Assembly (NCBI GenBank): GCA_017510605.1
Contig: JAFWMQ010000017.1
Coordinates: 62,001-126,000, forward strand
Direction of reading: 5' to 3'
DNA from: Clostridiales bacterium
GTDB lineage: Bacteria; Bacillota; Clostridia; Saccharofermentanales; Saccharofermentanaceae
Length of the DNA stretch: 64,000 bases
Every line of letters begins with the position of its first letter. The first letter of the stretch is position 1. Shown here one piece after another: positions 41,635-62,530 of this stretch. The notes below the pieces were generated by a model that had not been told where the DNA came from, searched no databases, and saw only the letters and a list, made by a program, of their open reading frames with translations. Both the position numbers and the translations under genes were made by a program.

Positions 41635-42384
41635 ATGAGAGTAATCAGAAAGAGTAATTACGAAGAAGCTTCAATGGCATGTGCTGAGCTCATCGCTTCA
41701 CAGATCAGGCTTAAGCCGGACTGCAAGATCGGTCTTGCTACCGGATCAACACCTATTGGAACTTACAAGGATCTTGTAGATATGTATAAGGCAGGAAGCC
41801 TTGATTTCTCCAAGGTCACATCAGCTAACCTTGATGAGTACAGAGGACTTGGCGGAGACCACGACCAGTCTTACAGATATTTCATGAATACAAACCTCTT
41901 CGATCATGTAAACATCGATAAGAGCAAGACATATGTACCTGACGGACTTGAGCAGGATGCAGTCAAGGCATGCACAGATTATGATGCGATCCTTGAATCA
42001 CTTGGCCACCTTGACATCCAGCTCCTCGGAATCGGCGGAGACGGACACATCGGATTCAATGAGCCTGCTGATGCTTTCTGCGTAAACACACAGTGCATCG
42101 ATCTTGAGGAGCAGACGATCCAGGATAACGCAAGACTCTTCTTTAACGGTGATCTTGCTGCTGTTCCTACACAGGCATATACAATGGGTATCGGCTACAT
42201 CATGAAGTCAACAACAGTTATCCTCATGGCTACAGGCGCAGGCAAGAGAGGCATCGTAGAGAAGGCCTTCTGCGGTCCTGTTACACCTCAGGTTCCTGCA
42301 TCTATCCTCCAGCTCCATCCGAACGTTGTCGTTATCGGTGATGAGGCAGCTATCTCTGACGCAGTTGTTGCAGCAGCTAAGTAA
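41635..42384 (+). CDS. nagB: Glucosamine-6-phosphate deaminase
   Basis: 249 residues. It converts glucosamine-6-phosphate to fructose-6-phosphate and ammonia, opposing amino-sugar synthesis. Seen: GLATGSTPIGTY (phosphate loop), SANLDEYRGLGGDHDQSY (catalytic Asp region), LGIGGDGHIGFNEP (catalytic motif), MATGAGKRG. GGGAGAC precedes the ATG. Placed directly after glmM, so the two opposed uses of GlcN-6-P are neighbours, though a terminator separates them. Confidence 0.96.
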   Translation: MRVIRKSNYEEASMACAELIASQIRLKPDCKIGLATGSTPIGTYKDLVDMYKAGSLDFSKVTSANLDEYRGLGGDHDQSYRYFMNTNLFDHVNIDKSKTYVPDGLEQDAVKACTDYDAILESLGHLDIQLLGIGGDGHIGFNEPADAFCVNTQCIDLEEQTIQDNARLFFNGDLAAVPTQAYTMGIGYIMKSTTVILMATGAGKRGIVEKAFCGPVTPQVPASILQLHPNVVVIGDEAAISDAVVAAAK

Positions 42385-42475: not shown

Positions 42476-43450
42476 TTAGTTTAAACGGGTGTGTTTGCCG
42501 GAAAGACGGTAAAGTCTCATTGCAAATCTGATGCTGATGTAAGCGGCAACCGAAAACAGCTTGGCAGGGAAATAGCTTATGCCTTTAAGGTAGTCCTTCT
42601 CATAGCGTTTGTAGTAAACCTTCAAATCTTTTACCGCCGGATGATCATAAAGCTTTTCATCGCACATCTTGATGACACAGTGGTTTACTGCCATAAGGAT
42701 GTCTGATCTTGCATAAACGGAAAGTTCAGGATATTTATCTTCGATAAAAGCGCAGCGATCCTCAAAAACCTTGATCATCTTGAAATTGTTGTCATTGAAT
42801 GAACGGTGGATCAGGCTGTCGTCACGAAGTGTATAGAAATACTTGGAGTCTCCTCCGATTGCGGTGGAACCTGCTTTTGATGCCAAACGGTACATCGTGG
42901 CATCGTCCTCATAATAGTTGCTTCCCTCGGGAAAACGCACCTCGTCAAACAGAGACCTTCTGAACATCTTTCCCCAAATGGAAGAAGAGAAGATCCTGGT
43001 CGTCAGCATGGCGCGCATCGCTTCGTGATTTCCTTTGTAAAGACCGGGCTCGTTTTTCCTGTAGCTGCATTTCGAGAGCTTTCCGCTCTCGTTGGTCGTC
43101 CATGCGCAGCATGATATGTCGGCATCATTTTCAGTGCAGAGCTTTAATAGATATTCAACGTAATCTTCTGCGAGATAATCGTCTCCGTCAGCGAAAACAA
43201 TATATTCTCCGGATGCTTTTTCAATGCCTGCATTCCTTGCATCAGCAACACCGCTGTTGCTTTTGTGGATTACTTTGACACGGCTGTCTTTTGCTGAATA
43301 ATCGTCGCAGATATTACCGGACGGATCCGTGGAACCGTCGTCGATCAACAATATCTCAAGTTCCCGATGTGTCTGGGACAGGGCAGTCTCCATTAACCTC
43401 GGAAGATAATCGCTGACGTTAAATACCGGTATGATAAGAGTTACGAGCAT
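42476..43450 (-). CDS. Family 2 glycosyltransferase
   Basis: 324 residues. TLIIPVFNVSDYLPRLMETALSQ, LLIDDGSTDPSG, FADGDDYLAEDYVEYL (metal motif), and YYEDDATMYRLA (catalytic base region). A hydrophobic C-terminal stretch (about 290-310, YFPAKLFSVAAYISI) may attach it to the membrane. No Shine-Dalgarno: the extended -10 TGATATAAT ends six bases before the ATG, so the mRNA is predicted leaderless and divergent from the radical SAM gene. Confidence 0.93.
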   Translation of the reverse strand: MLVTLIIPVFNVSDYLPRLMETALSQTHRELEILLIDDGSTDPSGNICDDYSAKDSRVKVIHKSNSGVADARNAGIEKASGEYIVFADGDDYLAEDYVEYLLKLCTENDADISCCAWTTNESGKLSKCSYRKNEPGLYKGNHEAMRAMLTTRIFSSSIWGKMFRRSLFDEVRFPEGSNYYEDDATMYRLASKAGSTAIGGDSKYFYTLRDDSLIHRSFNDNNFKMIKVFEDRCAFIEDKYPELSVYARSDILMAVNHCVIKMCDEKLYDHPAVKDLKVYYKRYEKDYLKGISYFPAKLFSVAAYISIRFAMRLYRLSGKHTRLN

Positions 43451-43480
43451 TTATTCATTATATCATGGTAAAATTGTCTC
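43451..43480. promoter_or_regulatory. 30-bp mirror-symmetric divergent leaderless promoter pair
   Basis: The whole gap between the two divergent ATGs is six bases, minus-strand TATAAT (43457-43462), its TGA extension (43463-43465), then TGG (43466-43468), TAAAAT (43469-43474) and six bases. Both -10 elements end six bases from an ATG and their TGn extensions abut. Confidence 0.6.
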
Positions 43481-44383
43481 ATGTCAGAACACAACGGATT
43501 ACGTCACTTTGTCGCCTGTGTGGCGAGAACGTTTCACCTTTGGCCGCTTATCTCCAAGACGGGGATCTATAATTATGCCCGCCGGAAGAAGTATCCGGAC
43601 ACATTGGTGTTTCTGGACGTGGTTATCACGGAGTGCTGCAGCTTAAAATGCCGTAACTGTTCCAATCTTATGCAGTACTATCACAAGCCGGAGAATCTTG
43701 ATCCTGAAGAGGTTATAAACAGTCTTAGAAGGATTTTCGGAGCTGTAAGGGTCAGCCAGTTGAAGATCCTGGGAGGAGAGCCTTTTGTTTGTCAGAAAAC
43801 CCTTATGAGAACTCTCGAGTATCTCAGGGAAGAGGCTCTGGATCGTTTTGACGAGGTGGAGATCATCACGAATGGGACCATAATTCCTTCTGAAGAATGC
43901 CTGCGCGTTATGAAAGAGACACCTAAGCTTAAAGTGCTCTTCAGCAATTACGGCGAACTTTCATCGAGGCTTGATGAGTTTATGGATATCTGCAGAAAAG
44001 AAAGCATAAATTGTGATGTGGCCGAGACTGATTACTGGTGGGATTTCGGTGATCTTAAGACACGTGAAGAAAAAGAACGTAAAACGCAGCACAGATACGA
44101 TGCATGTTATTCCAGAAAGCACTGTAATACTTTGTTCAGAGGAAAACTGTACGCATGCCCGAGACAGGCGCATGCGATCCGCCTGGGTATCAGTCCCGAA
44201 GTCAATGGAGAGTATGTTGATATTTTGAGTTCCGAAAACGAAGATCCCGCAAAGCTTCATGACGCGATCTACCGTCTTATCGACAGAAAAGAGCGCATTA
44301 CGATGTGTAAGGCCTGCGGCTGTGATTCCAATATAAAGATCCAAAGAGCCATTCAGACAGAAAGGCCTGTTGATGTCAGCTGA
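43481..44383 (+). CDS. Radical SAM protein in exopolysaccharide locus
   Basis: 300 residues. The CxxxCxxC cluster motif CSLKCRNC is at about residues 53-60, followed by a GGEP-type segment (LKILGGEPFV) and the EIITNGTII strand. A Cys-rich C-terminus (CYSRKHCNTLF, YACPRQ, CKACGCD) could hold a second, SPASM-like cluster. Radical SAM enzymes start chemistry with a 5'-deoxyadenosyl radical; the substrate here is unknown, perhaps a sugar or a peptide linked to the glycan. Predicted leaderless start. It overlaps the next glycosyltransferase by 11 bases. Confidence 0.88.
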   Translation: MSEHNGLRHFVACVARTFHLWPLISKTGIYNYARRKKYPDTLVFLDVVITECCSLKCRNCSNLMQYYHKPENLDPEEVINSLRRIFGAVRVSQLKILGGEPFVCQKTLMRTLEYLREEALDRFDEVEIITNGTIIPSEECLRVMKETPKLKVLFSNYGELSSRLDEFMDICRKESINCDVAETDYWWDFGDLKTREEKERKTQHRYDACYSRKHCNTLFRGKLYACPRQAHAIRLGISPEVNGEYVDILSSENEDPAKLHDAIYRLIDRKERITMCKACGCDSNIKIQRAIQTERPVDVS

Positions 44384-45359
44384 TAAACCTGAAATATCGA
44401 TCGTAGTACCTGCATACAATGCCGGACCGTATCTGACTGATTGCCTTGAAAGCATTATCAGACAGACGTTTTCGGATTGGGAACTGATAATTACAGATGA
44501 CGGTTCTTCTGACGGTACCGGTAATATCGCTGATGCATTTGCTGCAAATGACGGAAGGATAAGGGTGCTCCATCTTGCAAAACAGGGAGTCTCTGATGCC
44601 CGCAATTCCGGGCTGGATACCGCCAGAGGAAATTTTATTGCCTTTGTAGATTCTGATGATGTGCTTGAGCCGGAATATCTGAAAGAACTGTATTCCCACG
44701 CGATGCAAAGCGGTGCTGACATTACGCAGTGTTCATTCGTTCATGTGGATGAGAAAGGAAACACTATACCTGATCCGGATGCGAACGAAGAGGTATATAA
44801 AGACAAAAATGATATACTGCATGCTCATTTCCGCGGTCAGCAGGGTGATATAAGAGTGAGTGTCTGGGCCAAACTATTCAGGCGCGATCCTGTTTTGAAT
44901 CTCAGATTTGATACAGGTCTCAGGGTTTATGAAGACGCATATTATGTTTATCTTTGCTGTAAGGCTGCGAAAACAGTATGCTGCTTCAAGACGCCGCTTT
45001 ACCGGTATGTTCACCGCGACACATCGGTTACGCATTCATCGCTTCCTGAAATCTGGCCTGATTATTTTATAATGTATGAAAGGCAGAAGAGCGAATGCCG
45101 GGATGACCGCATCATATGCAAAAATATTGACAGGCGGGAAGCCGAGACGGGACTCTGGCTTATGCGCATATTGCTCCTTCAGGGTAATGAAAAGGAAGTT
45201 TGGACCGTCAGGAAAAAGCTGCTCGGAATAACTTGGCCGGTCATCTGGTCATCCGCACCTTCCGGGATCAAAATGAAACTTATTGCCGTCGCGCTGATGC
45301 CGCACATATATTTTGCAATACTTAGGAAAAGGATAGCCTCTAACAATGAGAAAGTATGA
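44373..45359 (+). CDS. Family 2 glycosyltransferase
   Basis: 328 residues from the ATG at 44373; a TTG codon just before is not needed. ISIVVPAYNAGPYLTDCLESII, ITDDGSSDGTG, FVDSDDVLEPEYL (metal DxD), and YEDAYYVYLCCKA (catalytic region). Basic, weakly hydrophobic C-terminus. Coding starts inside the radical SAM gene and ends inside the methyltransferase gene, so the three are translationally coupled. It resembles the 42476-43450 protein in plan. Confidence 0.93.
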   Translation: MSADKPEISIVVPAYNAGPYLTDCLESIIRQTFSDWELIITDDGSSDGTGNIADAFAANDGRIRVLHLAKQGVSDARNSGLDTARGNFIAFVDSDDVLEPEYLKELYSHAMQSGADITQCSFVHVDEKGNTIPDPDANEEVYKDKNDILHAHFRGQQGDIRVSVWAKLFRRDPVLNLRFDTGLRVYEDAYYVYLCCKAAKTVCCFKTPLYRYVHRDTSVTHSSLPEIWPDYFIMYERQKSECRDDRIICKNIDRREAETGLWLMRILLLQGNEKEVWTVRKKLLGITWPVIWSSAPSGIKMKLIAVALMPHIYFAILRKRIASNNEKV

Positions 45360-46287
45360 CAGAAATGCCGTGTTCAATATTATCTTGAAATGCATGCTGT
45401 TCATGCTGGTTTTCGCATGCTCTTTTTGTCTGATCAGATTTGTGTTTGGCATTATATTCATCATTTCTTTATTGTTGTCTGCAGTCCTTGCCGCCGCAGC
45501 TGTTTTTCTGTTTTCATTCCTTCTAAGGTGTACGAAGTTTTACTATGCATATTATTCGTTTGTTTCCCGCTTCTTATTCAAAGAAGACAATGGCAATGTT
45601 TACTGTCCCTGCTGCGGCAAGCATTTCGGGCATTTTGAGGATGAACGTTTTTACGATGACATCAGGCATTATGATCCCAGGACATTTAAGAGATTCAGAC
45701 AGGACGTCATATGTGATTTTTGCCGTTCTGCTCCGAGACAGAGGATAATTGCAAAATGGGCCGAAGAGAATGTGGAACTTCTTAAGTCTTCGAAGATACT
45801 TTATTTTGCTCCCGAACTTTCAATGATGCTCTGGTTCAGAAGGCACGGAATAAAAGTTACGACTGCTGATCTGTTTGAAAGAAGAACAGATCTTAAGCTT
45901 GATCTGACGGACATAGATCTTCCTGATCATTCGGAGGATATTGTTTTCTGTAACCATGTTCTTGAGCATGTTCCGGATTATAAGAAAGCCCTGTCCGAAC
46001 TTCACAGGATCATCAGGGAGGGAGGAAAGCTTATAATCAGTTTTCCCATAGATGATGAAGCGGAAACTGTCCGTGAAGATCTGAATGCTTCCGCAGATGA
46101 GAGGATTAGGCTTTTCGGCCAGCATGATCACTTAAGGCTTTTTGGAAAAGACAGCATAACAATGCTGGAAAATGCCGGCTTTGAAGTGGATACGATAGAT
46201 CTTGAGGCGATTCCGGAAGATGTCGTTCCGGTAAAAGGACCATCGGACTACGATTCCAATTTGATATTCTGCTGTGTCAGAAAGTAA
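45346..46287 (+). CDS. Membrane-anchored SAM methyltransferase with paired CxxC motifs
   Basis: 313 residues. Two hydrophobic helices (about 10-35 and 38-60), then YCPCCGKHFGHF and VICDFCRSAPRQR, paired CxxC knuckles that look like a small zinc site. Then a class I methyltransferase: YFAPELSMM, the acidic TTADLFERR strand, IVFCNHVLEHVPDYKKALSEL (post-motif of Methyltransf_11) and GGKLIISFPI. This plan is seen in methyltransferases of polysaccharide loci. It overlaps the preceding gene by 14 bases. Target probably a sugar. Confidence 0.87.
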   Translation: MRKYDRNAVFNIILKCMLFMLVFACSFCLIRFVFGIIFIISLLLSAVLAAAAVFLFSFLLRCTKFYYAYYSFVSRFLFKEDNGNVYCPCCGKHFGHFEDERFYDDIRHYDPRTFKRFRQDVICDFCRSAPRQRIIAKWAEENVELLKSSKILYFAPELSMMLWFRRHGIKVTTADLFERRTDLKLDLTDIDLPDHSEDIVFCNHVLEHVPDYKKALSELHRIIREGGKLIISFPIDDEAETVREDLNASADERIRLFGQHDHLRLFGKDSITMLENAGFEVDTIDLEAIPEDVVPVKGPSDYDSNLIFCCVRK

Positions 46288-46291
46288 GGCG

Positions 46292-46300
46292 TGTTATAAT
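46292..46300 (+). promoter_or_regulatory. Extended -10 promoter of the FkbM/flippase genes
   Basis: TGTTATAAT, 44 bases before the ATG at 46344; GTAAGGAATAAG gives the ribosome site. Confidence 0.5.
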
Positions 46301-46343
46301 CATTTTGTCCGGTTTAACTGGAATAAGGTGTAAGGAATAAGTT

Positions 46344-47231
46344 ATGGGATTTATAGATAAAGCCGGGAAAAAAGTGTTGCTCAAGCTGCCTGATCTGAAG
46401 CTTATCAGCTTGGCAAGAGAGAGTATGCCGTATATAAGTGTTCAGGCAGACGGTCTTTCTTTTTTCTTTTCGAATACCGATCAGGCGATCCTCAATTATA
46501 TTGTCAAGAATAAAAAGATCTGGGCCAGGGATGAGATGGATTTTGTGCTCGGGTATTACAACAATATAGCTTCACGTCCTGCAAACGTTATAGATATCGG
46601 CGCAAATGTCGGTACGTCAATCGTATATTTCAGGGACAGGCTCGGTGAAGAAAGCAAATTCTATGCGGTAGAGCCTGTGACGGATAACTTTAATCTTCTT
46701 AATGCTAACTGCGCCATAAACGGATTTTCAGATATCAGGACTTTCAAGTTAGGGATTTCCGATAAAGAAGGAGAAGCACAAATAGACATCAATCCCAATA
46801 ATATGGGGAATTGCAAGATCGCGGGTTCGGACGACATGAAACTCGTTCAGTGTGAGTCTGATGTCACATATGTCGGGGAGTCTGTAAAGCTTGTTACGCT
46901 TGATTCCCTGTGCTGCAAGGAACTTATAACAATAGATTCACCTGCGCTTTTCTGGATCGATGTTGAAGGGCATGAACCAGAAGTCTTCAGGGGCGGCATG
47001 GATTCTTTCCGCAATCCGGATTCGGCCGTGTTCTGTGAATATAACCCCAGACTGTATAAGCATAACGGCAGATACGACGGCTTCCTGAAGGATATAAAGT
47101 CATGCTTTGGCCGGTTCATATGTTTTGAACAGGCAGAAACAGGGAACTACAATTTCAGAGATATCAGCGAAATCGATAAGGTTGCTGACGAGAATGAAAT
47201 GAATCAATGTAACCTGTTCCTTGTTAAGTAA
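46344..47231 (+). CDS. FkbM-family methyltransferase
   Basis: 295 residues. The FkbM core is clear: VIDIGANVGTSIVYF (SAM-binding loop), FYAVEPVTDNFNLLNANCAING, and FWIDVEGHEPEVFRG in the C-terminal third, where FkbM proteins keep the WKIDVEGxE-type segment. It O-methylates sugars or other hydroxyls. Probably cotranscribed with the flippase gene 13 bases on. Confidence 0.93.
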   Translation: MGFIDKAGKKVLLKLPDLKLISLARESMPYISVQADGLSFFFSNTDQAILNYIVKNKKIWARDEMDFVLGYYNNIASRPANVIDIGANVGTSIVYFRDRLGEESKFYAVEPVTDNFNLLNANCAINGFSDIRTFKLGISDKEGEAQIDINPNNMGNCKIAGSDDMKLVQCESDVTYVGESVKLVTLDSLCCKELITIDSPALFWIDVEGHEPEVFRGGMDSFRNPDSAVFCEYNPRLYKHNGRYDGFLKDIKSCFGRFICFEQAETGNYNFRDISEIDKVADENEMNQCNLFLVK

Positions 47232-47246
47232 TGGTGCTTTCCAGTG

Positions 47247-48572
47247 ATGAACGGCGGTTCAAAGAAAAAGATCCTATCAAATTCCGTTTGGGTGATCATC
47301 CAGCACCTGTATTCGATGCTTACCTCGCTCATCCTTGTAGCGCTGATCGCAAGGCATCTGGGGCCTTCTGATTACGGACTGATAAATTACTGTGCGTCTT
47401 TGATCTCCATGTTTACGACATTGTCAGGTCTGGGACTTGATAATCTCATCGTATCCGAGATAATCAGGCGGCCTGAGAGGGAGGGCGGTTTCCTTGGAAC
47501 TGCACTCGTTATGAGGCTTGCAGCTACTTTCGTATCTTATCCGGTAATACTTGCGCTTATCGCGGTAATGAACCCCGGAAACCGTGTTTTGTTTATTGTC
47601 GCTGCGCTGCAGGCGCTCGGCATGATCTTCCAGACTTATGAAGTGCTCGTATATTGGTTCAGGATAAAACTGAAGATGAAATATATCTCCATAGCTTTGG
47701 TTTGTGCGATAACCGTAAATTCGATCTTCAGGATCGTGCTTCTTGTAAACAAGGCTGCTGTTGAGTGGTTCGCCTTTTCGATAAGCTTACAGGCATTTGT
47801 TGCAGGAATAATCATTATTGCTTTTTTCGTAAAGAAAACAGATGTCAGGCTGAAGGTCAGCTCAACAGATGCCAGGGACCTTCTTAAGAACAGCTATAAC
47901 TGCATAATATCCAGCATGGCAATAATCATATATATGGAAGTGGACAAGGTCATTCTCGAGAAGATGACCGGTGATGCAGCTGTCGGCATATACTCCGCTG
48001 CTGTTGTTTTAGCGACCTGCTGGCAGTTTATTCCTATCGCGCTGATAGATTCTTCAAGGCCTGTAGTTCTTGAGAAACGTAAAACTTCTCACGAAGAATA
48101 CTTAGATGAGTTTAAGCTTGTTATGGCAGGCGTTAACCTGATCGCATTTGTCTTCGCACTGCTGATGTCCTGTATGGGCTGGGTCTTTATCTATTTCCTC
48201 TACGGAGTGGACTATCTCGATGCGTTTATACCGCTGATAATCCTCTCCTGGTCATCATTTATAGGGGTTTCAGGTTATACAAGAACCATATGGATAACAG
48301 GAGAAGGGTTCTATAAATATGAGAAAAGATATGCTGTCACAGCTATGTTCATAAATATCCTTTTAGATATTGTGCTTATTTGGCAGTTCGGGATCATCGG
48401 AGCTGCGGTCGCCACGCTGATAACATATGTCTATGAAGTGCTTATCGTTCCGCTCTTTTTCAGGGAAACACGCGTTTTTACCCGGATGTATTTTCAATCT
48501 TTCCGTATGATCCCCAGATTCCTTGCGGAATCATCGAAAATGGTTAGAAGCAGATTCGGTCGGGAACAGTAA
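47247..48572 (+). CDS. Polysaccharide flippase (Wzx-type, MATE/MVF superfamily)
   Basis: 441 residues with about 12-14 membrane helices. N-terminal SNSVWVIIQHLYSMLTSLILVALIARHLGPSDYGLINY is the hallmark of Wzx/RfbX proteins. It moves undecaprenyl-linked repeat units to the outer face. Start: ATG at 47247 preceded in frame by GTG; no strong ribosome site is visible, so coupling to the upstream gene is likely. Last gene of the locus; no Wzy-type polymerase is recognised in the window. Confidence 0.93.
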   Translation: MNGGSKKKILSNSVWVIIQHLYSMLTSLILVALIARHLGPSDYGLINYCASLISMFTTLSGLGLDNLIVSEIIRRPEREGGFLGTALVMRLAATFVSYPVILALIAVMNPGNRVLFIVAALQALGMIFQTYEVLVYWFRIKLKMKYISIALVCAITVNSIFRIVLLVNKAAVEWFAFSISLQAFVAGIIIIAFFVKKTDVRLKVSSTDARDLLKNSYNCIISSMAIIIYMEVDKVILEKMTGDAAVGIYSAAVVLATCWQFIPIALIDSSRPVVLEKRKTSHEEYLDEFKLVMAGVNLIAFVFALLMSCMGWVFIYFLYGVDYLDAFIPLIILSWSSFIGVSGYTRTIWITGEGFYKYEKRYAVTAMFINILLDIVLIWQFGIIGAAVATLITYVYEVLIVPLFFRETRVFTRMYFQSFRMIPRFLAESSKMVRSRFGREQ

Positions 48573-54256: not shown

Positions 54257-56305
54257 ATGGATGCTGCTTATTTATTCAACAAGGGCGAGAACTATATGAG
54301 CTATAAGTTTCTCGGTGCTCATCCTTATGAGGACGAGAACGGAAAAGGCTTTATATTCCGCGTGTGGGCTCCTAAAGCAAGAATGGTCAGCGTTATGGGT
54401 GATTTCAATGACTGGGATCCCAACGGCTGCCAGATGTTCATGTTGGGTAAGACCGGAATTTGGGAACAGAAAGTGCCTGATGCACAACAGTGGGACAGAT
54501 ATAAATACAGAATCATCGGTGCAGATAACAGGATCTATGAGAAGGGAGATCCTTACGCAAGGCATTTCGAGACAAGACCGAATAATGCTTCGATAATATA
54601 TGATCCTGATGATTATATCTGGAATGACGATGAATTTGTAAAGAACCGTAAAGATGCGCTGGCACCTAAACCGATCAACATCTATGAGATACATCTGGGT
54701 TCATGGAGAAGGCATCCGGACGGGAATTTCTTCACTTACCGTGAATTGGCTATAGATCTTGCAGATTACTGCAAGAAGATGCACTACACGCATATCGAGC
54801 TTATGCCTATCTTAGAGCATCCCCTGGATGATTCATGGGGCTATCAGGTAACCGGTTATTATGCCGTTACTTCAAGATTCGGAACTCCGGCTGATTTTAA
54901 GTTCATGGTCGATGTTCTTCACCAGAACGGAATCTCGGTAATTCTCGACTGGGTTCCTGCTCACTTCCCGAAGAATATGGAAGGTCTCGTCAGATTCGAC
55001 GGAACTCCTTGTTATGAATATTCTGATCCGCGGATCGGTGAACACAGGGAGTGGGGCACTTATGTTTTCGATTATTCGAAAAATGAAGTTATCTCGTTCC
55101 TGATTTCCAATGCGGTTTTCTGGATCGATGAATTCCATTTGGACGGTATCCGTGTTGATGCAGTATCTTCAATGCTTTACAGGGATTACGGAAGACAGCA
55201 GTATATTCCGAATAAATACGGCGGCAACGAGAATCTTGAAGCAATAGATTTCTTTAAGACGCTTAACTATACGATCCGCAAGAATTATCCTCATGCAATG
55301 CTGATCGCAGAGGAGTCCACAGCATGGCCGAAGGTATCTCATCCCGTTGAATACGGCGGACTTGGATTCACTCATAAGTGGAACATGGGCTGGATGCACG
55401 ATACCCTGGATTATTTCTCAACGGATTCTTATGCGAGAGCATGGCATCACGATGAATTCTGTTTCTCGATGATGTATGCGTTTTCAGAGAATTACATCCT
55501 CAGCCTTTCCCACGATGAGGTAGTTCACGGTAAGCATTCACTGATCGATAAGATGCCCGGAGATATCTGGCGCAAATTCGCATCGCTCCGTACCATGATG
55601 CTCTACCAGATCAGCCATCCGGGCGGAAAGCTTAACTTCATGGGCGCAGAGTTCGGCCAGTTTATCGAATGGCGTTTCTATGAACAGCTCGAGTGGTTCC
55701 TGCTTGATTATGAATCACACCGTCTGCTGCAGAATTTCAACAGTGAACTCAACAAATTCTATGTTGAGAATCCGCAGCTCTGGGAAGATGACCATACGTG
55801 GGCAGGTTTTGAATGGATCGCTGCAGATGATACGAAGAATAACGTATTTATCTATAAGAGATCATGTCCTGACCCCAAGCGGAATGATATCTATGTTGCT
55901 CTCAACATGGTTCCGCAGCCTCTCGAAGGCTATGAGATGCCGGTCTATGAACTTGGAACATATAAGATCGTTTTCAATACGGACGATATGTGCCACGGCG
56001 GTTCGGGATATCCCACTGCAACTGATTTGAACGGCTGTTTCGAAGCAATCGACGAACCGCTTAACGGCAAGCCGTATCACGTTAAGATCAATCTTCCTCC
56101 TCTTGCAGGAATCTATTTCATGAAGGTGAAGGATCCTGTTAAGAAGAAGGCAAAGAAACCTGCAGAAAAGAAATCTGCTGCTAAACCCGCAGCAAAGAAG
56201 GCGGCAGTAAAGACTGCTGCCAAGAAGCCCGCAAAGAAAGAGACTGCAGTTAAGAAAGCAGCTCCTTCTAAAAAGGCTGACACGAAAACAAAGAAGACAA
56301 AATAA
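54257..56305 (+). CDS. glgB: 1,4-alpha-glucan branching enzyme with Lys/Ala-rich tail
   Basis: 682 residues. It moves alpha-1,4 chain ends to alpha-1,6 branch points in glycogen. Order: CBM48-like N-domain (FRVWAPKARMVSVMGDFNDW), GH13 barrel with HIELMPILEHP, DWVPAHFP, GIRVDAVSSMLY (nucleophile Asp), AEESTAWP (acid Glu), LSHDEVVHGK, then a C-terminal beta domain. After about residue 622 comes an extra 60-residue tail of KKAKKPA, AAKKAAV and KKAD units, absent from ordinary GlgB. LFNKGENYMSYKFLGAHP is the usual clostridial start. GGGAGG lies 13 bases before the ATG. Confidence 0.96.
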   Translation: MDAAYLFNKGENYMSYKFLGAHPYEDENGKGFIFRVWAPKARMVSVMGDFNDWDPNGCQMFMLGKTGIWEQKVPDAQQWDRYKYRIIGADNRIYEKGDPYARHFETRPNNASIIYDPDDYIWNDDEFVKNRKDALAPKPINIYEIHLGSWRRHPDGNFFTYRELAIDLADYCKKMHYTHIELMPILEHPLDDSWGYQVTGYYAVTSRFGTPADFKFMVDVLHQNGISVILDWVPAHFPKNMEGLVRFDGTPCYEYSDPRIGEHREWGTYVFDYSKNEVISFLISNAVFWIDEFHLDGIRVDAVSSMLYRDYGRQQYIPNKYGGNENLEAIDFFKTLNYTIRKNYPHAMLIAEESTAWPKVSHPVEYGGLGFTHKWNMGWMHDTLDYFSTDSYARAWHHDEFCFSMMYAFSENYILSLSHDEVVHGKHSLIDKMPGDIWRKFASLRTMMLYQISHPGGKLNFMGAEFGQFIEWRFYEQLEWFLLDYESHRLLQNFNSELNKFYVENPQLWEDDHTWAGFEWIAADDTKNNVFIYKRSCPDPKRNDIYVALNMVPQPLEGYEMPVYELGTYKIVFNTDDMCHGGSGYPTATDLNGCFEAIDEPLNGKPYHVKINLPPLAGIYFMKVKDPVKKKAKKPAEKKSAAKPAAKKAAVKTAAKKPAKKETAVKKAAPSKKADTKTKKTK

Positions 56306-56329
56306 GCTCATATACGGAGGTAGTTCATT

Positions 56330-57589
56330 ATGGCAAGAACTGAAGTCGTTGCGATGATACTCGCGGGAGGACAGGGAAGCAGACTCGGTGTACTGACTAA
56401 GACAGTAGCTAAGCCGGCAGTACCTTTCGGAAGCCGTTACAGGATCATCGATTTCCCGCTTTCCAACTGCGTTAACTCAGGAATCGAGATAGTCGGTGTT
56501 CTTACTCAGTATCAGCCGCTGGCTCTTAATACTTACGTAGGTAACGGTCACCCTTGGGATCTCGACAGAAATAATGCCGGTGCTTATATCCTTCCGCCTT
56601 ATCAGAGTATAGCCGGATCTGTATGGTATAAGGGCACCGCAAACGCTATTTACCAGAATATGAGTTTTATTGATGATAACGATCCGGAATATGTCGTTAT
56701 CCTGTCAGGCGACCATATCTACAAGATGGACTATGCCGCTATGCTGAAGGCCCATATCGATAAGGGTGCGGATGCAACCATCGCGGTTTATGAGGTGCCG
56801 TGGGAAGAAGCTCCGAGATTCGGTATTCTTAATACGAAGGAAGACGATATTATCGAAGAGTTCGATGAGAAGCCCGCAAAGCCGAAGAGCAATCTTGCTT
56901 CAATGGGTGTTTATATCTTTACATGGAGCGTTTTAAGACAGGCCCTTATCGAAGATGAGGCTGATCCTGATTCAGCTAATGACTTTGGTAAGAATATCGT
57001 TCCGAATCTCCTTGGCCAGGGTAAAAAGCTCTGCGCTTACAGGTTCTCCGGTTATTGGAAGGACGTAGGAACTATTTCCTCCTTATGGGAGACAAATATG
57101 GATATCCTCGATAAACCTGAAGATATCAACCTGGTCGACAGATCATGGAAGATCTTCTCGAGAAACCCTGTTAAGCCGTCTCACTTCATTGGTTCAGGCG
57201 CAAAGGTCAAGAATTCGGCTCTTACGGACGGCTGCCGTATCTTTGGTGATGTAGAGCATTCAGTGCTTTCCGAATCAGTTATCGTTGAGAAGGGGGCAAT
57301 AGTTAAGGACTGTGTGCTCATGCCGGGCGTTGTAGTCAAGGAAGGAGCTCATATCGAGCGCTGCATCATTGATGCCGGAACAATAATCGGCAAGAATGTG
57401 CAGGCAGGTAATTTCGTTGAAGGCGAAGGACCTTACACGAATCACAAGATCTGTTCCGAAGGCATCTGTGTTTTCGAGCGCGGTCTGACGATAAGAGAAG
57501 GTTCCGTGATCCCGGCAAACAGCATGGTCGATACAGCCGTTGAAGTCCCTGAGGACTGCGACATCATCGAGTCGACTTTCAGAGCATGA
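56330..57589 (+). CDS. glgC: Glucose-1-phosphate adenylyltransferase
   Basis: 419 residues. It makes ADP-glucose, the committed step of glycogen synthesis. Seen: [45 protein letters not shown], and a C-terminal left-handed beta-helix ([18 protein letters not shown]). ACGGAGG precedes the ATG, 24 bases after glgB. It is expected to pair with GlgD. Confidence 0.97.
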
Positions 57590-57609
57590 GGTAAAGGAGA
57601 TTAAGACAT

Positions 57610-58719
57610 ATGTTTAATAATGCAATGGGGCTTATCTTAGCCGACAACAAAAAGATATCTCTGGGCGAGCTCTCCAATCCTCGCGCGCTTTCCGCAATGC
57701 CTTTCGGCGGAAGATACAGGATCATTGACTTTATGCTTTCCAACATGGTCAATTCCGGAGTTAAGAATGTAGGTCTTCTTACTTACAACAAATACAAGTC
57801 ATTGATGGACCACCTCGGAACCGGAGGAGCATGGTCTTTGGACAGAAAGAATGACGGTCTTCACATCCTGCCGCCTTATGTTAATTCTGAGGCTACCAGC
57901 ATCAGTTCCGATGAGGAACTTACAGGCGTCATCGATTTTTTGAGACAGTCCAGAACACCTTATGTAATCGTCTCCGGAGCAAATGTTATCCTTAACACGA
58001 CTTTTGATAATTTCATTAAGTCACATGAGGAATCCGGTGCTGATATCTCCGTAATGTATAACCGCGACGGGACAAAGTACGGAAGCCCTTCTTATATCCT
58101 TGATATCGATGACGATGGATTCGTAAGAGATATGCTGTACAATCCTACAAAGGCTACGTCGCAGAGATGCTCTCTTGCGATCCTCTGCCTCAGGAGAGAT
58201 CTACTTATTGACATCCTCGCCCGTCAGATGGCGCACGGCCAGAGCCACTTCGGAATCCACTCCATCGTTAAGCTTTTCGATGAGTTCAAGGTGCACGGAT
58301 TCGAGTATTCGGGTGTGGCATTAAGGATCAATAACGTACAGGGCTATTTCAATGCGTCCATGTCGCTCCTTACAGATTCAGTCAGGAACGACCTCTTCTG
58401 GAGCGGAAAGCCTATCTATACAAAGGTCAAGGACGAAGCACCGACACTTTATTTCGACAATGCCGAGATGAGCGATTCGATCGTATCAGACGGCTGCCGC
58501 ATCTATGGTAAGGTTGAAAGTTCAGTTATATTCAGAAGTGTTACGATCGCGAAAAATACCACGATCAAGAATTGCGTTATCATGCAGGACGTTCACATCT
58601 CCGAGAACTGCCACCTTGAGAATGTAATCCTCGATAAGAACGCTTTCGTAAGACCGGGCGTAAGACTTGTCGGACATCCCGACTATCCTATCGTTATAGG
58701 AAAAGGAGCAGGTATCTGA
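57610..58719 (+). CDS. glgD: GlgD, GlgC-like regulatory subunit
   Basis: 369 residues. Nucleotidyltransferase fold like GlgC (AMPFGGRYRIIDFMLSNMVNSG and a C-terminal beta-helix) but with a degenerate N-terminal nucleotide loop (LILADNKKISLGEL in place of AGGxGxRL). In Bacillota GlgD joins GlgC to form a more active enzyme. AAAGGAG precedes the ATG. Confidence 0.96.
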   Translation: MFNNAMGLILADNKKISLGELSNPRALSAMPFGGRYRIIDFMLSNMVNSGVKNVGLLTYNKYKSLMDHLGTGGAWSLDRKNDGLHILPPYVNSEATSISSDEELTGVIDFLRQSRTPYVIVSGANVILNTTFDNFIKSHEESGADISVMYNRDGTKYGSPSYILDIDDDGFVRDMLYNPTKATSQRCSLAILCLRRDLLIDILARQMAHGQSHFGIHSIVKLFDEFKVHGFEYSGVALRINNVQGYFNASMSLLTDSVRNDLFWSGKPIYTKVKDEAPTLYFDNAEMSDSIVSDGCRIYGKVESSVIFRSVTIAKNTTIKNCVIMQDVHISENCHLENVILDKNAFVRPGVRLVGHPDYPIVIGKGAGI

Positions 58720-58721
58720 TT

Positions 58722-60398
58722 ATGGAAAAGACTATCAAAGTATTATTCACATCGTCTGAATGCAGTCCGTTTGTTAAAGTAGGCGGTCTTGCAGATGTTG
58801 TAGGAAGTCTGCCAGTTGAACTCAATAAGCAGGGCGTAGATGCGCGTGTCATTATACCGTTGTACAAGAAGATCAAAGTCAAGTACAGCGATAAGCTCCA
58901 CTTCCTTGGCTGGAAGATGGTGCATATGGGATGGCGTTCGCTCTATGCAGGACTTTTCTCTCTTGAATTAAACGGCGTTATTTTCTATTTCATCGATAAC
59001 GAGTACTATTTCAACTTTGATCAGATCTATGTTGATTATGTTTTCGATATCGAGCGTTATTGCTTCTATCAGAGAGCAGTTCTTGATTTCATGGGAGACT
59101 TCATGGATTTTGAGCCGAATGTCCTCCATTGCAATGACTGGCAGACAGGAATGATGCCTATGCTTCTTGACTGCCACTTCAAGAAGAACGGTTATCACAC
59201 TAATGTCCAGACTGTCTATACTATCCACAACCTTAAGTATCAGGGTGTTCATTCTATTGATGTAGTCAGAGAGATGCTGGATCTTCCTGACGATTACTTA
59301 AGAGAGGATTTCTGCATTAAGGATAAGGCTATCAACTTCATGAAGGCGGGTATCGTTTTCTCGAATTCAGTTACGACTGTATCACCGACATATGCCTATG
59401 AGATCATGACTGACTATTACGGTGAAGGCCTCAACTATACTCTGCAGAAGTACGCTTATAAGGTATCAGGTATCATCAACGGCATGAATGAAATGGAATA
59501 CAATCCTGCAACTGATGATAAGATCCCGATGAAGTATTCGATCAAGAATTACAAAGAAGGAAAGGCGGCCTGCAAGAAGTCTTTGCAGGAACAGCTTAAT
59601 CTTGATGTTAATCCCGGGGCTCCTCTTTGCGCAATGATCTCGAGACTCGTAGACCAGAAGGGATTGGATCTCCTGCTTTACGTTCTCGAGGAAATGCTCT
59701 ATGACGGTATGCAGGTCGTTATTCTCGGTACAGGTGATCCGTACTATGAGAGAGCCCTTGCAGATATTGCTTCACGCAATCCGGGTAAGATGTGCGCATG
59801 CATTGATTTCGACAGCGGACTTGCCCATACGATCTACGCGGCTTCCGATATCTTCCTTATGCCGAGTATCTTTGAACCATGCGGTCTTTCACAGCTTTGC
59901 TCGATGGCATACGGTTCTGTTCCGGTTGTAAGAGAAACGGGCGGCCTTAAGGATACCGTTACCCCTTATAACGAATATACTGGCGAAGGCAACGGCTTTT
60001 CGTTTGCGAATATCAATGCGCATGAGTTCCTTTTTGTTACTAAGTATGCTGCTGACATTTACCGTCATCAGAAGGATATTTGGGATAAGCTCATTGAAGC
60101 CGGAATGAAGGGTGATTACTCGTGGAAGAAGAGCGCCGGAGAGTATGCCGGACTTTATTCCCTCATTACGGGTATTGCAAAAGCTGAACCTGATCCTGAG
60201 CCGGTAAAGCCTGCAAAGAAGGTATCTTCCGAGAAGAAGAGCGCACCGGCAGAGAAGAAGGCTGCTGAGAAAAAGCCTGAAGCAAAAAAGACAACTGCCA
60301 AAAAGGCTCCCGCAAAGAAAGAAGCAGCTAAGAAGCCTGCAAATAATCCTGTAAAGGATCCGGAGAAGAAGCCTGAAGAGAAGGAGAAGAAAGACTGA
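58722..60398 (+). CDS. glgA: Glycogen synthase with Lys/Ala-rich tail
   Basis: 558 residues. It adds glucose from ADP-glucose to the growing chain. GT5 marks: SSECSPFVKVGGLADVVGSLP (ADP-binding KxGGL), HCNDWQTGMMPM, SRLVDQKGLDLL, and MPSIFEPCGLSQLCSMAYGSVPVVRETGGLKDTV. The usual protein ends near residue 485; the last 70 residues are a charged tail of KKAPAKK and EKKPEAKK units, similar in style to GlgB and PPK1. It begins two bases after glgD and its stop overlaps the next ATG. Confidence 0.97.
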   Translation: MEKTIKVLFTSSECSPFVKVGGLADVVGSLPVELNKQGVDARVIIPLYKKIKVKYSDKLHFLGWKMVHMGWRSLYAGLFSLELNGVIFYFIDNEYYFNFDQIYVDYVFDIERYCFYQRAVLDFMGDFMDFEPNVLHCNDWQTGMMPMLLDCHFKKNGYHTNVQTVYTIHNLKYQGVHSIDVVREMLDLPDDYLREDFCIKDKAINFMKAGIVFSNSVTTVSPTYAYEIMTDYYGEGLNYTLQKYAYKVSGIINGMNEMEYNPATDDKIPMKYSIKNYKEGKAACKKSLQEQLNLDVNPGAPLCAMISRLVDQKGLDLLLYVLEEMLYDGMQVVILGTGDPYYERALADIASRNPGKMCACIDFDSGLAHTIYAASDIFLMPSIFEPCGLSQLCSMAYGSVPVVRETGGLKDTVTPYNEYTGEGNGFSFANINAHEFLFVTKYAADIYRHQKDIWDKLIEAGMKGDYSWKKSAGEYAGLYSLITGIAKAEPDPEPVKPAKKVSSEKKSAPAEKKAAEKKPEAKKTTAKKAPAKKEAAKKPANNPVKDPEKKPEEKEKKD

Positions 60399-62530
60399 TG
60401 CCTTCTTTGAAGACACAGAATGATTCAAAAGGTTTAAACAGGGCGCGGTGCATTCATGCATCGCGCCTTCCTGAGTACAGGCTTCCGTTCGGCGCAAGAC
60501 CTGCCGGTTCTTATGTGGAGATCTTTTTCGACTGCTTCAAAGAAGCAACAAACGTAACGTTCTGCTATACGTATGGTCTCTACAGTTTTTCTTATCATGA
60601 GGAGCCGATGTATTCGGTATCGGGGCTTGGAAGATATCATGTTAATCTTATGCTTCCGTCAGAGCCTTCGATCCTTTTCTATTGGTTCAGATTTAATGTG
60701 CCGGGAGATCTTGAGGACCTGCAGGAAGAATTTAAAGTGTCCGGTGAAGACGACAATCCCGCTCCTGATATCACGCTCTACTATGGGGCAGGTATGGATA
60801 CCAAGGATGGAGAGGGTACCATTTATACTTGTCCGCCGAGAGTAGGCGTGGATGAAGATAAATATCCTTTTGCTTTCCAGATAACGGTCTATAACAAAGA
60901 CTTTAAGACACCCGGTTTCCTTAAGGGTGCCATGATGTATCAGATCTTTCCCGACAGGTTTGCCAGAGACCATTCTTTCAGTTATGAGAGACTGACAGGA
61001 ACCGATGCGAGACAGGAGCGTATCTATCACGAGGACTGGTATGAGGATGTCGATACAAAGGGTAAGCCGGAGACAGGTTATCTTGCATGCGATTTCTACG
61101 GCGGAAGTCTTAAGGGAATCGAAGAAAAGCTTGATTACCTGAAGGAATTGGGAATCAATGTCCTGTATTTGAATCCTATCTTTGAAGCCAGATCTTCACA
61201 CAGATATGACACAGCTGATTATCTTAATGTTGATCCGATTCTTGGCGGTACTGCGGCTTTCATGAGTCTTGCTGATGCCTGCAAAGAGCGCGGCATTAAG
61301 ATCGTCCTTGATGGTGTATTCAGTCACACCGGTGCTGATTCTAAATATTTCAATAAGTTTGACAGATATGAGGGTGTTGGCGCCTACAAAGCATTTAATG
61401 AAGGGGAGGAGAGCCGTTACCGCTCCTGGTATAACTTCTTCAGGAATGAGGACGGTTCAGTCGGATACGATTCCTGGTGGGGTTTTCCGGATCTCCCGAA
61501 CATTAATGAAGATGATCTGTCATACCGCAACTTCATCTTCGGCAAAGATGGAGTGGTAGACACATGGACTTCAAGAGGCTCTGCCGGTTTCAGACTGGAT
61601 GTATCTGATGAATTGCCGGATAGTTTTATCAGGCAGATGAGACAGACGGTCAAGGAGAAGACGAACGGTGAGGGCGCCGTGATCGGCGAGGTTTGGGAAG
61701 ATGCTTCGAATAAATGCAGTTACGGTTCCTACCGTGACTTTATGCTCGGCAACACCCACGATTCTGTGATGGGCTATACGTTCAGACATATTATCCTTGA
61801 TTTCCTGTGCGGATATATCGATGCCGATATTGCGGATTCAAGGCTTGAAGGTTTCCGCGAAAGGTATCCGAAGGAAGCTTATTATGCGATGATGAACCTT
61901 GTTTCTTCACATGATGTTCCGCGTATAATGACTGCGCTTTCAAGACCTGAGGATACGGATGACAGAGATGTCCAGCGCGGTTTTAAGGTCGATAAGAAAT
62001 ACTATGATATCATCTCGTCGCTCTCGAAAATGGCCTTTGCATTCCAAACGGGTTATATAGGCGCTTCGTGTATCTATTATGGTGACGAAGTTCTTATGGA
62101 AGGATATAAGGATCCTTTCAACAGAAGGACATATCCCTGGAACAGACTTGATCAGAGACAGCAGGATGCTCTCGCTTATTTCAGGCGGATCGCAAGGTTA
62201 AGGACAGAGAACGCCTGTCTCCGTACAGGTTATTACAAGACTCTTATGGCCGGAGGCGGCTCCTTCGCATTTGTCAGATACCTGAAAGAGGGCCGCGATG
62301 CATTCGGAAATGAGGCATCCGGCAGCAGGGCGGTAGTGTTTATAATGAACAGATCGGATAAGCCTGTCCATGTGGACCTGACTGAACGCTACGGAAGTTT
62401 TGATTGTGTGCCTTCCGAGATCAACGGCGGGATACATCCCTTATCAGAACAGTTTATTCTGGGCGGAATCCTCGGAGGAACAAGACAGATCGGCATAAAA
62501 CCGTTTGGAACGGTGTTCGTAGTATATTAG
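60398..62530 (+). CDS. GH13 alpha-glucan hydrolase (neopullulanase/amylase-like)
   Basis: 710 residues. An N-terminal beta domain (about 1-160), then GH13 motifs: IVLDGVFSHTG, GFRLDVSDELP (nucleophile Asp), GEVWED (acid Glu), VSSHDVPRI, and a C-terminal beta domain with SRAVVFIMNRS. No signal peptide, so it works in the cytoplasm on glycogen or imported maltodextrins. Start and stop overlap by one base with glgA, so breakdown and synthesis are on one message. Confidence 0.93.
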   Translation: MPSLKTQNDSKGLNRARCIHASRLPEYRLPFGARPAGSYVEIFFDCFKEATNVTFCYTYGLYSFSYHEEPMYSVSGLGRYHVNLMLPSEPSILFYWFRFNVPGDLEDLQEEFKVSGEDDNPAPDITLYYGAGMDTKDGEGTIYTCPPRVGVDEDKYPFAFQITVYNKDFKTPGFLKGAMMYQIFPDRFARDHSFSYERLTGTDARQERIYHEDWYEDVDTKGKPETGYLACDFYGGSLKGIEEKLDYLKELGINVLYLNPIFEARSSHRYDTADYLNVDPILGGTAAFMSLADACKERGIKIVLDGVFSHTGADSKYFNKFDRYEGVGAYKAFNEGEESRYRSWYNFFRNEDGSVGYDSWWGFPDLPNINEDDLSYRNFIFGKDGVVDTWTSRGSAGFRLDVSDELPDSFIRQMRQTVKEKTNGEGAVIGEVWEDASNKCSYGSYRDFMLGNTHDSVMGYTFRHIILDFLCGYIDADIADSRLEGFRERYPKEAYYAMMNLVSSHDVPRIMTALSRPEDTDDRDVQRGFKVDKKYYDIISSLSKMAFAFQTGYIGASCIYYGDEVLMEGYKDPFNRRTYPWNRLDQRQQDALAYFRRIARLRTENACLRTGYYKTLMAGGGSFAFVRYLKEGRDAFGNEASGSRAVVFIMNRSDKPVHVDLTERYGSFDCVPSEINGGIHPLSEQFILGGILGGTRQIGIKPFGTVFVVY

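Follow-up and report, generated by a model that had tools for sequence, protein, structure and literature searches.

The 30 bp that separate a family 2 glycosyltransferase (GT) gene from a divergent radical SAM gene in a Clostridiales bacterium, a clostridium of the rumen and of Saccharofermentans type, are most probably (roughly 85%) a packed pair of extended -10 promoters that drives two leaderless messages, with one polymerase bound at a time. The gap lies within a 64,000-nt stretch of DNA, referred to here as the window. Two known kinds of control region are combined in it, namely leaderless genes with extended -10 elements and divergent overlapping promoters.

Anatomy of the intergenic region

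The two ORFs begin at 43450 on the minus strand and at 43481 on the plus strand, and the gap between them consists of exactly twice a TGn, a -10 hexamer and six nucleotides, with no spare base (Table 1). Read from the centre outward, the plus strand gives TGG TAAAAT TGTCTC ATG and the minus strand TGA TATAAT GAATAA ATG, and both TGs together form a central CATG palindrome. The original prediction had described a 30-bp gap filled by two extended -10 elements, each six bases from its ATG, and its coordinates proved to be exact. It had also called the gap mirror-symmetric; the symmetry is instead two-fold (dyad), because the two TGs share the central CATG. The claimed lack of a Shine-Dalgarno (SD) sequence was borne out, as no purine-rich motif is present in the 15 nt upstream of 43450 or 43481.

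Table 1. Features of the divergent gene pair and its intergenic region (window coordinates)
Feature	Coordinates	Strand	Remarks
Divergent intergenic region, 30 bp, wholly occupied by two back-to-back promoters	43451..43480		Length 30 in nine species
Extended -10 element TGA, GT gene	43463..43465	-	TG invariant in 8/8 haplotypes, third base variable
-10 hexamer TATAAT, GT gene	43457..43462	-	Six columns, all invariant
6-nt spacer GAATAA, -10 to ATG	43451..43456	-	Predicted +1 is the A of the ATG, 43450; 0 invariant columns, length constant at 6
Extended -10 element TGG, radical SAM gene	43466..43468	+	TG invariant in 8/8 haplotypes, third base variable
-10 hexamer TAAAAT, radical SAM gene	43469..43474	+	TAGAAT in one 30-bp relative
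6-nt spacer TGTCTC, -10 to ATG	43475..43480	+	Predicted +1 is the A of the ATG, 43481; 0 invariant columns, length constant at 6
Family 2 GT, 324 aa	42476..43450	-	ATG 43450-43448; Pfam PF00535, 1.9e-37
Radical SAM protein, 300 aa	43481..44383	+	ATG at 43481; Pfam PF04055, 4.2e-10; conserved radical SAM and C-terminal cysteines
GT2, methyltransferase, FkbM methyltransferase, polysaccharide flippase	44370..48572	+	Probably in the same unit as the radical SAM gene, judged from spacing

For lack of a well-placed -35, both promoters escaped a generic -35/-10 scan. On the radical SAM side the best -35 match agrees in 2-4 of 6 positions. On the GT side a -35-like CTGACA (5/6) is found 19 bp from the GT -10 in 4/8 haplotypes, and in those four haplotypes a -35 may contribute.

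Divergent mRNAs, a dyad-symmetric AT-rich core and two polymerases that are unable to bind together, so that only one orientation is occupied at a time, are features that the gap would share with the bidirectional promoters studied by Warman and Grainger (PMC12825309). In that classical form one symmetric -10 is shared by both directions and the transcription start sites (TSSs) are commonly 10, 18 or 23 bp apart. The present gap instead holds two complete, non-overlapping extended -10 elements whose hexamers are separated by six bases, it would leave no 5' UTR on either side, and its TSSs, which are predicted rather than mapped, would be 31 bp apart. A single shared -10 is thus extremely unlikely to account for it.

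Start codons and locus setting

An in-frame TAA is located just upstream of each ATG, within the -10 hexamer for the plus-strand gene and as the last spacer triplet for the minus-strand gene. The next internal methionine of the radical SAM protein is residue 64, past the cysteine motif (C53, C57 and C60), and that of the GT is residue 20, past the first beta strand. Both starts are forced by these upstream stops together with the conserved N-terminal regions, and 43450 and 43481 are, as judged from the sequences, the sole plausible starts of the two genes. The ATG is kept in all close homologues of both genes that were read.

The pair is situated at the border of a polysaccharide locus with the gene order GT2, radical SAM, GT2, methyltransferase, FkbM methyltransferase and flippase. 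Species in which the neighbouring nagB gene (window 41635-42384) shows 93-99% identity share no more than 56-80% in the GT next to it, and the distance from nagB to the GT varies among relatives from 66 to about 1670 bp. These identities are as expected for what appears to be a hypervariable, exchangeable surface-polysaccharide locus at a fixed chromosomal site. The radical SAM protein carries further conserved cysteines towards its C-terminus (C209, C215, C226, C276 and C279), and its solved-structure relatives are weak only (7wzv, E 9e-9). Elsewhere in the window (54257-62530) a glycogen-type cluster encodes two alpha-amylase-family enzymes, one of them with CBM48, two GlgC/GlgD-like nucleotidyltransferases and a starch synthase.

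Conservation of gap length and promoter bases

The divergent GT/radical SAM pair was sought by protein search, before any DNA pattern was applied, in 59 sampled congeneric genomes. It was found in 11 of them, the window's own genome included, and the relatives with the pair are recorded as Saccharofermentans and rumen Ruminococcaceae/Oscillospiraceae MAGs; the gap is exactly 30 bp in nine of the 11 species and about 93 bp in the other two. Across the nine species (eight haplotypes), 15/18 core columns are invariant, compared to 0/12 columns of the N6 spacers, whose length is constant (Fisher p = 1e-5). Core variation is confined to three columns, namely the 'n' of either TGn and position 3 of the plus-strand -10, that is, the degenerate positions of the TGn/-10 motif. 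This conservation is seen at an evolutionary distance at which four-fold-degenerate sites are near saturation (25-49% identical, one near-identical pair excepted). In the GT tree the nine species with a 30-bp gap group together as a single clade (100/99), and the arrangement within the genus therefore represents one event that was retained.

A variable gap in relatives had been named beforehand as an observation that would count against the original prediction. No such variation is seen among the nine species, and in the two 93-bp relatives both -10 elements still lie six bases from their ATGs. Gap length and promoter bases that are fixed in nine species lend strong support to two back-to-back extended -10 promoters. 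The exact length of 30 bp in these relatives most likely follows from the lack of a spare base. An indel at the central CA/TG junction would be tolerable to both promoters, so that the fixed length of the centre may mean that there is no space to spare and not that the promoters are coupled; the viral pairs with 29- and 32-bp gaps, described below, favour this view. The junction between the radical SAM gene and the next GT was considered as a variable-length comparator; its length is constant in the nine species and it therefore provides no neutral yardstick for indels.

The core, being dyad-symmetric and strongly conserved in nine species, could also be read as an 18-bp CATG-centred operator for a dimeric regulator, with transcription starting further upstream inside the opposite genes. 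An operator would not be expected to go with spacers of fixed length and free sequence, its half-dyad and N6-ATG would not need to persist, as they do, in genes that do not face each other or are 93 bp apart, and the variable columns would have no reason to coincide with the degenerate positions of TGn and -10. A leadered transcript would moreover lack an SD. An operator is accordingly quite unlikely, and the conserved core is better read as the two extended -10 elements themselves.

Evidence for leaderless starts

The six-nucleotide spacing is found, with variable spacer sequence, at 34 homologous starts (11 GT, 8 second-family GT and 15 radical SAM), including radical SAM genes without a divergent GT and both genes of the two 93-bp species. 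A spacer that is fixed in length and free in sequence is the hallmark of a leaderless start. Away from this setting, more distant radical SAM homologues do not, for the most part, show the N6 spacing, and some have SD-like leaders. In the two 93-bp species the GT -10 is without TG but has TTGTAA 18 bp upstream, whereas the 30-bp species have TG; this difference is the trade that is expected between an extended -10 and a -35.

The second GT family, with the start ATGAAAGTAAG, has in eight species the arrangement TGTATAAT-N6-ATG, in which TG directly abuts the -10. It faces another GT at a distance of about 39-45 bp, and the facing gene apparently has a weak SD.

Genome statistics were drawn from 452 kb of this genome, which contain 16,890 ATGs in any frame on both strands. 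The pattern TGnTAnAAT-N6-ATG precedes only three of these ATGs, two of which are the present facing pair. A single copy of the exact 36-bp layout exists in this genome. Across 85 congeneric genomes it was matched nine times, at no other place than the GT/radical SAM locus, and reversed-pattern controls gave no match in the same 85 genomes. The arrangement is not due to chance. In the 452 kb, the distance between strong -10 hexamers and ATG has its peak at 6-7 nt (18 compared to 5.4 expected, p = 1.4e-5), and seven of this spacing carry TG (0.3 expected). On the strength of this peak, leaderless genes are a small but real class in this genome and make up roughly a few per cent.

Both the N6 placement and the genome-wide peak agree with the published distance of about 6-7 bp between the -10 and the ORF of leaderless genes (PMC12340547) and with the TG peak that was reported before leaderless -10 elements in low-GC Firmicutes (PMC3160421). 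These comparisons of sequence give good support to the anatomy and to the leaderless reading. The original prediction of leaderless starts has thus gained strong comparative support from spacers that vary in sequence and not in length, while leaderless translation itself is something that we infer. About a dozen further leaderless-type starts were noted in the 452 kb; the host group is not among the leaderless-rich Firmicutes named in the 2011 survey, which are concentrated in Lactobacillales and Mycoplasma (PMC3160421).

Recurrence with unrelated genes

A search of a class-wide sample revealed a zero-mismatch match to the layout in another clostridial family, between genes for a Crp-type regulator and an alpha/beta hydrolase. 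Including both start codons, this gap (CATAAACTAATTATACCATGATATAATTAGTTTATG) is a near-perfect 36-bp palindrome. Three additional matches in viral contigs all represent one divergent pair, whose short-chain-dehydrogenase-like (SDR-like) and 2-oxoglutarate-oxygenase-like products were named by eye from sequence. The genes of both pairs are unrelated to the GT and radical SAM genes, and the layout has thus recurred independently. No further match was obtained in the phylum-wide sample at up to one mismatch, nor any other in the family of the Crp/hydrolase genome at up to two mismatches. Among relaxed layout matches elsewhere in the genus, both flanks of eight loci were translated, and none of these eight showed a plausible divergent pair with long ORFs at that spacing.

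A preference for exactly 30 bp was sought in the viral contigs and not found, as plausible pairs also occur at 29 and 32 bp, and 30 bp is therefore not uniquely required. In contigs of the viral collection, 32-bp gaps with head-to-head leaderless-type promoters lie between long divergent ORFs of 220/213, 211/238 and 246/392 aa. The same layout is present with a 29-bp gap in further contigs, several of which have a short conserved ORF (103-115 aa) that begins like M...ILYIIYSP. Head-to-head leaderless promoters within about 29-32 bp might tentatively be regarded as a recurrent minimal class of bidirectional control, which would have arisen repeatedly in clostridia and viral contigs. Each promoter would there serve as the upstream half of the other, and alternating polymerase occupancy would be forced without a regulator; this generalization is somewhat less probable than not.

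Proposed mechanism and coupling of the two genes

In the proposed mechanism, two divergent housekeeping-sigma promoters of the extended -10 (TGnTATAAT) type would stand back to back on the shared CATG dyad. RNA polymerase would recognize TGn and the -10 without the need of a -35, and any -35 would fall within the first codons of the opposite gene. Transcription would start from the A of each ATG, and both mRNAs would be leaderless 5'-AUG messages. With predicted start sites 31 bp apart, one polymerase footprint would span both promoters and limit the gap to single occupancy. The promoters would drive the left border of the surface-polysaccharide locus, with the GT leftward and the putative radical SAM/GT/methyltransferase/flippase unit rightward.

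The usual footprint of RNA polymerase reaches from about -55 to +20. Simultaneous occupancy is very unlikely, because two sigma-A holoenzymes that start 31 bp from each other would cover the same DNA. Judged by such known footprints, exclusion is physically likely, and the regulatory mutual exclusion of the original prediction is a possible consequence.

The same anatomy could result from packing, with two independent leaderless promoters that abut without regulatory coupling and without selection on the centre. We give this even odds, an estimate that does not exclude the one given for the main reading; the anatomy is the same in both and the regulatory consequence differs. The two 93-bp relatives show that the promoters can work apart and that coupling is not essential, and the central spacing in other pairs is 5 or 8. 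At five E. coli bidirectional promoters, which are too weak to compete at basal activity, competition was little or undetectable in that state and appeared once one side was activated (PMC12825309). Against mere packing stand the overlap of footprints that a TSS spacing of 31 bp must bring about, and the retention of the 30-bp form through near-saturating divergence.

The single occupancy proposed here resembles that of E. coli aroP, where polymerase at one of the divergent promoters P1 and P3 blocks the other (Wang et al. 1998, as cited in PMC12825309). The exclusion at aroP involves the regulator TyrR, according to the title of that study, whereas no regulator is known for the present gap.

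Relation to known systems and significance

The two genes share with described leaderless genes a -10 about 6 nt before the ATG and no SD (Zheng 2011, PMC3160421; Deinococcus-Thermus, PMC12340547), and with those of low-GC Firmicutes the TG before the -10 (PMC3160421). Published accounts treat leaderless genes one at a time, and the present gap joins two of them head to head without a spare base. A literature search, with many subscription papers outside its scope, found no prior description of back-to-back or leaderless bidirectional promoters.

With each base of the gap assigned and no room for a leader or a ribosome-binding site, the gap comes close to the minimum size of a control region for a divergent gene pair. 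It is a clean natural case in which to test leaderless initiation in clostridia, which the 2011 survey does not list among the groups where such genes are concentrated, and to test how far polymerase occlusion alone couples two genes. Where RNA data are lacking, spacers of fixed length and free sequence are in addition a simple means of locating leaderless starts in uncultured genomes.
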